From the NCBI GenBank assembly GCA_017608345.1, contig JAFCGA010000002.1, positions 1 through 64,000 of the forward strand: a stretch of 64,000 nucleotides of DNA, given 5' to 3'. The number at the start of each line of letters is the position of its first letter. Positions within the stretch are counted from its first letter, which is position 1. The DNA is from Candidatus Pacearchaeota archaeon. Lineage in GTDB: Archaea > Nanobdellota > Nanobdellia > UBA10117 > JAFCGA01. The notes beneath the pieces are model-generated. The model saw nothing but the letters and a program-made list of their open reading frames with translations. It ran no database searches and was not told where the DNA came from. Position numbers and translations under genes: made by a program. Below, in pieces: positions 24,345-62,474 of this stretch.

Positions 24345-24398
24345 ACAGTAGTAACAATAAATAAACTTAAAAGATTTTCTAACTAACCTTTCAAGAAG

Positions 24399-33290: not shown

Positions 33291-33452
33291 CATATAAATC
33301 TAATATTATATATTTCTGAGAGCGCTGACGTAGCGAGGGGATTAGTTCTCGTTCTTCAGGTTGTTCTCCTTTTCTCTTCCGGAATATTATATCTCCCTTA
33401 CTACTCTGGGACAAATAAACTTAAAAGATTTTCTAACTAATATCTTTAGAAC

Positions 33453-42253: not shown

Positions 42254-42418
42254 AAGAGTATTCTCGCCAAGTAGCCATTTTCTTTTCCAGACAGGAACTA
42301 GTTCCTGTTGGCCAAGAGAATCTGCGATTCTCTCTGGCTTTGCGAAAGAAAAGAAACTAGGCATCTAAAGAAAAGAAAGCATATTGTTCGCTTCGCTCAA
42401 GAGTATTCTCGCCAAGTA
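42254..42418. mobile_element. Double-hairpin element E1 flanked by 20-bp direct repeats
   Basis: AAGAGTATTCTCGCCAAGTA at 42254-42273 and 42399-42418; double hairpin at 42287-42337. Confidence 0.65.
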
Positions 42419-42726
42419 TGTTTACACTTAGTGCATCTAAAAAATTCTGTCTCGGGCTCGTCAGATGCGCGAGTTTGCAAGGACCAATGGTAGGCTTTGC
42501 TGTTACCGCATTTTTCGCAAGGCTCTTCCAAGCTAATTGTCGCTAGAGTCTGTTCTTCACCTTCTGAAACTCCTTCACCCTTTTGCTCATTAAACATCTT
42601 CTCAGAAACTTTGATTCTGGCATGTTTCGTAGAGATTTTTTCATTACAGCGAGGGCATTTTACTACTTGCTTTCCATTCTCTGTTGCCGGTACAAGTATG
42701 CTCCCGCATTTATCACAAAAATTCAT
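42397..42726 (-). CDS. Transcription factor S (TFIIS/RPB9-like)
   Basis: MNFCDKCGSILVPA..KCPRC and C-terminal CEKCGNSKAYHWSLQTRASDEPETEFFRCTKCKHTWREYS. Confidence 0.95.
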   Translation of the reverse strand: MNFCDKCGSILVPATENGKQVVKCPRCNEKISTKHARIKVSEKMFNEQKGEGVSEGEEQTLATISLEEPCEKCGNSKAYHWSLQTRASDEPETEFFRCTKCKHTWREYS

Positions 42727-42805: not shown

Positions 42806-42957
42806 CCAAGCGAACTCCGTTCGCGTGGCCAAGAGAAAGCTCGCTTTCTCTCTGGAGAAAGAAAATCTATGCTACCAAGCGGAATGAAATTCCGCGTGGC
42901 CAAGAGAAATCGAAGATTTCTCTCTGGAAAGAAAGAAGCATATTACTCACTGCGCTC
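42806..42957. repeat. Two tandem double-hairpin units (E2a, E2b) with AAGAAAGAAGCATATTACT..CGCTC tail
   Basis: CCAAGCGAACtccGTTCGCGTGGCCAAGAGAAAGCtcGCTTTCTCTCTGG and CCAAGCGGAATgaaATTCCGCGTGGCCAAGAGAAATCgaaGATTTCTCTCTGG. Confidence 0.8.
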
Positions 42958-43002: not shown

Positions 43003-43899
43003 ATGCCAACGAATGTATCTGTTTATTATCTCAAGGCGGAGATGGGCTATCATGAAGCTAAGACTACGCAGGAAAAGCTCAAGGCTCTTAAGCACATGCT
43101 TTCTTTATCTCCTGGGCACAAAGGTGCTGAGAAGCTTAGAAAAGATATTAAAGAAAAAATAAGAAAATTAAAATATCTGAAGGAGAAGGAAAGAAAGCAA
43201 GTTAAGCGTTCTGGGCATTCGATAACTGTTAAGAAAGAAGGCGCAGCGCAGATTGTTTTTGTGGGGATTCCTAACTCTGGCAAATCGACTCTGCTTTCTA
43301 AATTATCTGGCAAATCTATTAAAATAGCAGAATATCCCTTTACTACAAAACTACCTGCTGTAAAAATGATTCCTTTTGGGGGAATTAAATTGCAAGGCGT
43401 TGAAATTCCAGCGCTTTACGAAAAAATCGAGGAAAATTCCCGCGGTCGCCAGATGCTAGCTATAATCCGAACCGCAGATTTCATAGTAGTTGTTGCAAAA
43501 GAGCGGAAGTATTTGCAGCCAGCAAAAGATATTCTAGCAGAAGTTGGAATTTACCTCGGAGCTAAAACGAAATACAGAGATGGATTTATCGAACATATTC
43601 CTTCCCTCGATGTTGTCGGAAAAGACTTTGATAATAAGAACTTGGTAAAGAAGATTTGGCTAAAGCAAGGAAAGATACGCGTTCAGACAAAAGCTCGCGG
43701 ACAGAAAGCTGCTAAGAAGCCGGTTATTTTGAAAGAAAGGGGAACAGTTGAGCAGCTAGCTAAAATAGTCCATAAAGATTTTATTAAGAAATTTCGGTAC
43801 GCTAAAGTCTGGGGTCCTTCTGCTCACTTTCCGGGCGAGAAAGTTGGCTTTGAGCATAAGTTGAAGGATAGGGACGTTGTTGAGTTGTTTATGAAATAA
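43003..43899 (+). CDS. DRG/Obg-family GTPase with TGS domain
   Basis: IVFVGIPNSGKSTLLSKLSGKSIKIAEYPFTTKLPAVKMIPFGGIKLQGVEIPALYE; C-terminal TGS-like WGPSAHFPGEKVGFEHKLKDRDVVELFMK. Confidence 0.9.
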   Translation: MPTNVSVYYLKAEMGYHEAKTTQEKLKALKHMLSLSPGHKGAEKLRKDIKEKIRKLKYLKEKERKQVKRSGHSITVKKEGAAQIVFVGIPNSGKSTLLSKLSGKSIKIAEYPFTTKLPAVKMIPFGGIKLQGVEIPALYEKIEENSRGRQMLAIIRTADFIVVVAKERKYLQPAKDILAEVGIYLGAKTKYRDGFIEHIPSLDVVGKDFDNKNLVKKIWLKQGKIRVQTKARGQKAAKKPVILKERGTVEQLAKIVHKDFIKKFRYAKVWGPSAHFPGEKVGFEHKLKDRDVVELFMK

Positions 43900-44395
43900 G
43901 ATATTTCTTTAATCGACGGATATGAAAATATTTCGCAGCATCATTTACTTCGAGAATCTTATCAAGTGAAAATGCCTTTGAAAAATCTCGCAGTTCATTA
44001 ATCTTATTGCGAGTCTTTCGTTTTTCTTTTATCTTCCCTCTGCGATTGAATCTAGCAATTCGCTGTTCTTTCCAAGCAGCTAGGACTTCTTGTTCTAATT
44101 GTTTCTTTAGATATGCTGATTTGTGAACTCCATATTGATTGAGATGATGTGCTTCGCATAGCGTTACTAAGTTCTTCGAGCTATGAACAAAATCTCGTTC
44201 AAAATATTTTACTTCAGTTGTGCGAGGGATTACGTGATGGACATTAAAATAAAACTCGAGAGATTCGTAACCCGCTACTCGACGAGCGTGTTTATTCCTA
44301 ACGCCGCAAGCTTGACAAGCGTACTTATCTTTTTCTCTTTGAGCATCTCTTATTTCTGCCCAGTTCTTAGGAAGTGGTTCATCTCCATAAGCCAT
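43889..44395 (-). CDS. HNH endonuclease-like protein
   Basis: CQACGVRNKHARR...FNVHHVIPRTTEV...NLVTLCEAHH. Confidence 0.85.
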   Translation of the reverse strand: MAYGDEPLPKNWAEIRDAQREKDKYACQACGVRNKHARRVAGYESLEFYFNVHHVIPRTTEVKYFERDFVHSSKNLVTLCEAHHLNQYGVHKSAYLKKQLEQEVLAAWKEQRIARFNRRGKIKEKRKTRNKINELRDFSKAFSLDKILEVNDAAKYFHIRRLKKYLIS

Positions 44396-52450: not shown

Positions 52451-52537
52451 TAGCCTTTTAGAAAACCAGAGAGAAATCTTCGATTTCTCTTGGCCAAGCG
52501 GAATGTTATTCCGCTCTGGAGGCTAGCGAAAAGAAGA
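52451..52537. repeat. Double-hairpin element E3 between convergent genes
   Basis: CCAGAGAGAAATCttcGATTTCTCTTGGCCAAGCGGAATgttATTCCGCTCTGG, flanked by CCTTTTAGAAAA and GGCTAGCGAAAAGAAGATA. Confidence 0.8.
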
Positions 52538-62249: not shown

Positions 62250-62474
62250 TAGCGCGGGTTAGATTTGAACTAACGACCTACGGGTCTCTCTAGCCTTTAT
62301 TTCGGAGCGAAAGTAAAGTAAAATGCTTCTCTTTCTTTCCCCAGGGTTTCTTTCTCTTCGCAAGAGAAAGAAAGGCTGTATGAGCCCGTCGGGCACCTTC
62401 TGCAACCAAAGCTGAGCTATCTTCTTTTCGCCAACCTTTTTTTAAAAGGTTGTTCCAGACTGCCCCACCGCGCT
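62250..62474 (-). tRNA. Initiator tRNA-Met (CAT) interrupted by two introns
   Basis: Spliced reading AGCGCGGTGGGGCAGTCTGGAAGGTGCCCGACGGGCTCATAACCCGTAGGTCGTTAGTTCAAATCTAACCCGCGCTA; A1:U72 and GGG:CCC anticodon stem; intron at 37/38 = 62286-62378; second intron in D-loop about 62400-62452. Confidence 0.88.

Follow-up and report, generated by a model that had tools for sequence, protein, structure and literature searches.

A double-hairpin element between two copies of the TFS gene end in a DPANN archaeon, a likely member of a mobile family

The window (the whole stretch of DNA analysed, 64 kb of the 1.05 Mb source genome, G000) raises the question why the last codons of a gene for archaeal transcription factor S (TFS) stand twice, on either side of 125 bp that contain a double hairpin (DH), and what kind of sequence has come between them. 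The favoured answer, with a probability of roughly 0.6, is a recent insertion into the last TFS codons: the 125 bp would be one copy of a non-coding mobile element that occurs dispersed in this archaeal order.

The TFS gene end and the inserted element

The 20-mer AAGAGTATTCTCGCCAAGTA was identical on both sides of the 125 bp (Table 1), and the window had no other exact direct repeat of 20 bp, one unrelated 28-bp repeat aside. The latter (AAATAAACTTAAAAGATTTTCTAACTAA) occurred at 24359-24386 and 33413-33440, with a separation of 9 kb. As best ungapped match the TFS pair scored 20, and mismatched flanks of DH elements reached 13 at the 99th percentile. Both copies encoded WREYS, followed by TGA in the proximal and TAA in the distal copy; the exact repeat, this reading of it and the double hairpin in between had all been claimed in an earlier note on this DNA and were confirmed, the reading by translation. 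The C-terminus of TFS was complete, its TGA stop being contributed by the junction with the element. TFS of two relatives from the same order ended in WREYS-TAA and WREYS-TAG, so that of the two copies the distal one, WREYS-TAA, appears to be the older gene end.

The double-hairpin element was real, but the description "palindromic element" in the earlier note was too narrow, since a pyrimidine arm, two purine arms, a linker and a third hairpin were also present. The DH usually formed part of a larger unit, ordered as GCCA, pyrimidine arm T, a loop (often with DH), purine arm A1, linker CTAGGCRTCY, purine arm A2 and third hairpin. The GCCA start was sharp in 11 copies (TFS and ten more) with unrelated left flanks. 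No ORF of 60 aa lay within the 125 bp; a 61-aa ORF (42308-42493) extended into TFS. Neither this insert nor the 144-bp insert of a relative described below encoded a homing endonuclease, and no pair of terminal inverted repeats enclosing the element was seen. Rfam, including its group I introns, gave no match above gathering score in the window, and in the element region the best match under relaxed thresholds had E 0.56. About 1.5 kb from the element, a 168-aa ORF (43889-44395, minus strand) matched HNH endonuclease (PF13391) with 20.6 bits, below the Pfam cut-off of 21.

Table 1. Coordinates of the element, the TFS gene, further DH copies and the intron-bearing tRNA gene in the window
Feature	Position	Strand	Basis or remark
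Distal (displaced) copy of TFS 3' end, WREYS-TAA	42254-42273	minus	Exact repeat and translation
Inserted element, 125 bp, GCCA-first orientation, antisense to TFS	42274-42398	plus	Bounded by the 20-bp repeats; GCCA left end common to 11 copies
Pyrimidine arm T, TTTTCTTTTCC	42278-42288	plus	
DH, CCAG-stem-TTGG CCA-stem-CTGG	42287-42337	plus	Covariance model R1, 72.3 bits
Purine arm A1, reverse complement of T	42344-42356	plus	
Linker CTAGGCATCT	42357-42366	plus	
Purine arm A2	42367-42379	plus	Mirror and direct copy of A1 tie, 9 versus 9
Third hairpin H3, start	42380-42398	plus	Extends further rightward in other copies
TFS, intact, 109 aa	42397-42726	minus	Zn_ribbon_TFIIS, 2.1e-17
Proximal 20-mer copy within TFS, WREYS-TGA	42399-42418	minus	Exact repeat and translation
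Second DH copy, upstream of TFS	42806-42855	plus	Covariance model
Third DH copy, upstream of TFS	42875-42927	plus	Covariance model
Fourth DH copy	52466-52519	minus	Covariance model
tRNA-Met(CAT) with two introns	62250-62474	minus	ARAGORN recognises the spliced form, not the unspliced
Anticodon-loop intron, 93 nt: T arm, A1, CCCTGGGG, A2; no DH	62286-62378	minus	12-nt mirror match against 8 direct
D-loop intron of tRNA-Met(CAT), 55 nt	62398-62452	minus	

Copies of the family and their folding

A pattern search of the source genome gave 19 half-units of the form TGGCCAAG..CTGG, and none with the reversed control. When the 165 bp that comprise the insert and both 20-mers served as BLAST query, 14 matches were obtained in this genome, and the long ones excluded the 20-mer; thus the duplicated sequence is not part of the repeat in other copies. 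Further copies had been expected to carry target duplications as well. The copies were found, but among the 11 listed GCCA copies a direct repeat was present at TFS and absent from the other ten, and target-site duplication as a general rule was dropped for this reason.

A covariance-model search of the source genome gave at least 25 distinct DH places from 50 strand matches, a lower bound with 150 of 772 candidates scored. DH matches at E <= 0.001 were present in 10 of the 18 genomes of the order. Among 234 genomes of the class, with E <= 1e-4 and stricter filters, 15 had DH matches, nine of them in the order and six, with weak matches, outside. Homologous units lay in convergent, divergent and co-directional gene gaps. 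At one place of the source genome (L200, G000:C14:33200-34300) a DH stood amid other repeated hairpins, with AATCTTTGATTTTTGGTTATAAACTTTCCG on either side. Judging by titles and the openings of abstracts, in a coverage that mostly leaves aside subscription journals, no published account of these elements was found.

In the alignment of the 13 copies then available, with three poorly aligning copies excluded, 269 of 271 cells were Watson-Crick; 11 pairs had two-sided changes and none a one-sided change. G-U pairs made up 23 of the 1198 pairs predicted by RNAfold in 52 distinct copies (11 of 479 in the source genome, 12 of 719 elsewhere). Because wobble pairs were so rare, an RNA-level function was not retained for the DH by itself; their rarity would fit a DNA fold, more than an RNA fold, as the thing selected or copied.

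An intrastrand purine triplex requires a stem and a third arm that mirrors it. In 31 T-A1-A2 elements of the source genome (GCCA units, tRNA introns and others) A2 was a better mirror than direct copy of A1 in 21, a worse one in 3 and tied in 7; the corresponding numbers in 12 elements of relatives were 7, 1 and 4. When A2 was shuffled among elements, the observed mirror mean was reached in 0 of 2000 permutations in each set, related copies not being independent in these statistics. None of 300 shuffles reached the direct-copy score of A2 either, which is to be expected when arms are A-rich and alike. The T-A1-A2 unit may thus be taken as a predicted intrastrand-triplex design at the level of the family, for which the TFS copy with its tie is uninformative.

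Insertion at gene ends and in tRNA genes

The clearest case of insertion came from G007, whose TFS was interrupted at the same spot as in the source genome. Here TGGAGAAAGTATTAAAT was followed by 144 bp with a DH and then by GAGAAAGTATTAAAT again, an exact duplication of 15 bp. In G016 and G010, of the same genus as G007, the TFS site was empty, with a single copy followed by similar sequence. Empty sites, which the earlier note had advised looking for, were thus found for the equivalent insertion; for the source genome itself the searched set included no relative closer than the order, and no empty site was found. By the empty-site test the two TFS insertions were independent events. They had the same polarity, with the DH nearer the displaced copy. 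Insertion with flanking duplication and an intact TFS, as the earlier note had proposed, is well supported, and it is likely that what was inserted is a mobile element.

For 52 distinct DH elements the translated flanks on the two sides were compared, the maximum for mismatched flanks being 47 in 250 draws. Higher scores were obtained at L257, L264, L254, L189, L200, L175, L261 and L183. Two of these were excluded as non-coding (L200, repeated hairpins; L261, a short tandem repeat), and flank matches at L173 and L006 were excluded for their tRNA likeness. The 69-point match at L254 was due to a tandem TFS paralogue, and this locus was counted for its 15-bp repeat alone. Gene-end duplication was accepted for 7 of the 52 elements, the window TFS copy included, which was the single case within the source genome. 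The junction lay 8-14 nt from the DH in six of the seven loci, counted by inspection. The unit was antisense to the gene at 3' gene ends and sense at the gene described next.

At L257 (G007:C5:7500-8600) the first 40 codons of a gene, presumably aIF5B, stood on both sides of the element. The two copies differed mainly at synonymous sites (pS 0.71 against pN 0.11, Fisher 4e-10). Compared with G016, the displaced 5' fragment was 85% identical over 87 nt and the corresponding 87 nt of the intact gene 66%; a 33-nt core agreed between the copies at 32 of 33 positions, and the 110 nt after it were 98% identical to G016. The first 29 codons of the intact gene were altered at most synonymous sites relative to the displaced, native-like 5' fragment and to the compared relatives. 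Because the adjoining core was nearly the same in both copies, the idea that the displaced fragment acts as a guide RNA was dropped.

The gene at L189 in G016, which we take from its sequence to be XPF-like, had the same excess (pS 0.78 against pN 0.21, Fisher 1e-4). Its native end was judged by nucleotide identity: the displaced 3' end and the intact end were 84% and 71% identical to G007, and 74% and 73% to G010. At L175 the corresponding values were 81% and 67% to G010, and 64% and 69% to G002; synonymous differences exceeded the sites there. The Fisher tests cover aIF5B, the XPF-like gene and L183, and at the last the excess was not significant (0.20). L264 went in the opposite direction (65% for the displaced and 72% for the intact end, nucleotide identity to G016); its intact end was G010-like in protein and its upstream part 95% identical to G016. 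The displaced fragment was thus the more native end by identity in three of four loci (aIF5B, XPF-like and L175, not L264), and the exact duplicates at both TFS sites cannot tell native from replacement end. A search of 378 class genomes yielded no donor for the diverged ends of aIF5B and the XPF-like gene. Outside G007 the aIF5B end was matched there at 77-85% over 54-93 nt at best, besides one 26-nt match of 96%. The target duplication of the earlier note therefore needs qualifying for several relatives, where the duplicate is a diverged, apparently imported gene end and not a plain target-site duplication.

Units of the same design were also present in tRNA genes. Four tRNAs, none of which was found unspliced, became recognisable to ARAGORN when their inserts were removed: tRNA-Met(CAT) of the window, missed by both ARAGORN and Rfam on the unspliced window; tRNA-Ile of G007, with inserts of 207 nt (with DH) and 152 nt; tRNA-Asn of the source genome, with one of 140 nt (with DH); and a fourth with no isotype assigned, with inserts of 155 nt (with DH), 66 and 48 nt and inexact exon borders. 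In every tRNA insert read by eye the T arm came first in the sense strand, an orientation that would fit a need for splicing. ARAGORN gave almost nothing on the window and 22 loci, nor on nine loci with anticodon-loop introns allowed, because the tRNAs carry several introns; at the Rfam cut-off the source genome had only 14 tRNA matches. This is a warning for annotation, as the insert-bearing tRNA genes of the window and of three other loci were missed by ARAGORN until the inserts were removed. Many tRNA genes of the order seem to have two or three introns, several with DH (L205, L212, L195 and L196 in the source genome; L173 and L187 in G007).

Archaeal tRNAs can have several introns at non-canonical sites, and similar introns occur in different tRNAs. 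Archaeal tRNA introns with apparent transposition were reportedly described by Fujishima in 2010. Such introns are known from Thermoproteales (PMC3293823); unlike the introns described there, the T-A1-A2 design of the present archaea was found between protein genes as well.

Explanations and known systems

The family of copies, the fixed left end, the exact 20-mer, the G007 insertion with its empty sites and the loci where the element separates a displaced gene fragment from the intact gene count for a mobile element. Against it count the small share of elements with gene-end duplication (seven of 52), the lack of duplication in GCCA copies other than TFS, the non-significant excess at L183, the identities at L264 and the tie between mirror and direct copy at TFS. 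Similar insertions in relatives, some of them accompanied by a replaced gene end, speak for a mini mobile element of a poorly known type.

How it might move and be tolerated can be put forward tentatively. The element would move as folded single-stranded DNA, made up of the DH and the three-strand arm, which is a guess, and insertions would be tolerated only if the gene is rescued: in protein genes through a gene end that is duplicated or imported, in tRNA genes through splicing of related units in sense orientation. The whole picture, in which a non-coding DPANN mini-element spreads in this form, inserts at gene ends with its own replacement end that keeps the host gene working, and persists in sense tRNA copies as introns, is possible but has the odds against it. 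If true, it would be a homing-like element without a gene of its own, an archaeal, ORF-free parallel to the fungal mitochondrial elements that replace gene ends, and an inserted unit whose three arms co-vary as a triple helix would require; it would link mobile DNA to intron gain and give a concrete source for many tRNA introns of these archaea.

A MITE-like miniature transposon with a staggered cut would explain the 20-, 15- and about 33-bp repeats as target-site duplications, with a transposase or Cas1-like integrase encoded elsewhere and the diverged gene ends as a separate matter. The exact repeats at both TFS genes, the G007 one single in the empty sites of G016 and G010, the near-exact 33-nt repeat at aIF5B and the fixed left end speak for it. 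The explanation is rather unlikely all the same: the duplication varies in length and is lacking in ten GCCA copies, terminal inverted repeats were not seen, and a staggered cut does not produce gene ends with changes at most synonymous sites. In addition, Y1 transposase (RAYT, PF01797) was found in none of six DH-rich genomes (G000, G002, G007, G010, G014 and G016), which speaks against mobilisation by a REPIN/RAYT or IS200-type system of the same genome.

The imported or diverged gene ends adjoining the element, and the mixed G010-like and G016-like composition of L264, could also arise by passive hitch-hiking, in which static, immobile intergenic DNA is carried along by homologous recombination in the gene end and illegitimate joining on the other side. 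This is quite improbable, since it leaves unaccounted for the exact TFS repeats, one family at 25 or more places with a fixed end and the distance of 8-14 nt between junction and DH in six of seven loci, and since G007 TFS is a locus with an element-only insertion, an empty site and no imported sequence. Strong hairpins generally promote slippage, and the element lies downstream of a gene, as a structured terminator or RNA element would; local tandem duplication or slippage at such an immobile structure is nevertheless disfavoured as very improbable in view of the homologous units at unrelated places, in varied gene gaps and in tRNA introns, the scarcity of G-U pairs and the empty site at G007 TFS.

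The mobile element favoured here can be set beside several known systems. Double-hairpin elements of fungal and algal mitochondria consist of two adjacent hairpins, are dispersed and are thought to be mobile. The likeness is one of description; the archaeal elements are chromosomal and, unlike the mitochondrial ones, have a conserved CCA..TGGCCA..TGG frame within a unit of three arms. For the mobile ORFs of Glomus and Allomyces mitochondria, duplicated carboxy-termini are described, with a replacement gene end whose differences are mostly synonymous, displacement of the native end to behind the element, and inferred interspecies transfer (PMC3630166). The archaeal pattern is similar, and by identity three of the four loci would fit a replacement end with a displaced native one, but the fungal elements contain an ORF of several hundred bases for a homing endonuclease, whereas the archaeal inserts of 125-144 bp are ORF-free, lie in the chromosome, form folded DNA units and also occur at a 5' gene end (PMC3630166).

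REPINs are short, dispersed, non-coding units of paired hairpins, thought to move as single-stranded DNA with RAYT transposases (PMC3116915). Two inverted hairpin units per element are a shared trait; unlike REPINs as presented there, the archaeal family lacked Y1/RAYT in the six DH-rich genomes, had freely varying stems with fixed stem ends, and was associated with gene-end duplications (PMC3116915). In the 18 genomes of the order, PF01797 had any match in two and a match above cut-off in one. Bacterial intrastrand triplex motifs have a stem and a mirror third purine arm on one strand and are repeated, intergenic and linked to instability; the main motif of that study is G/C-rich and not tied to mobile elements (PMC4666352). 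The archaeal arms, in contrast, are A/T-rich, co-vary from copy to copy and occur both in an inserted unit and in tRNA introns.
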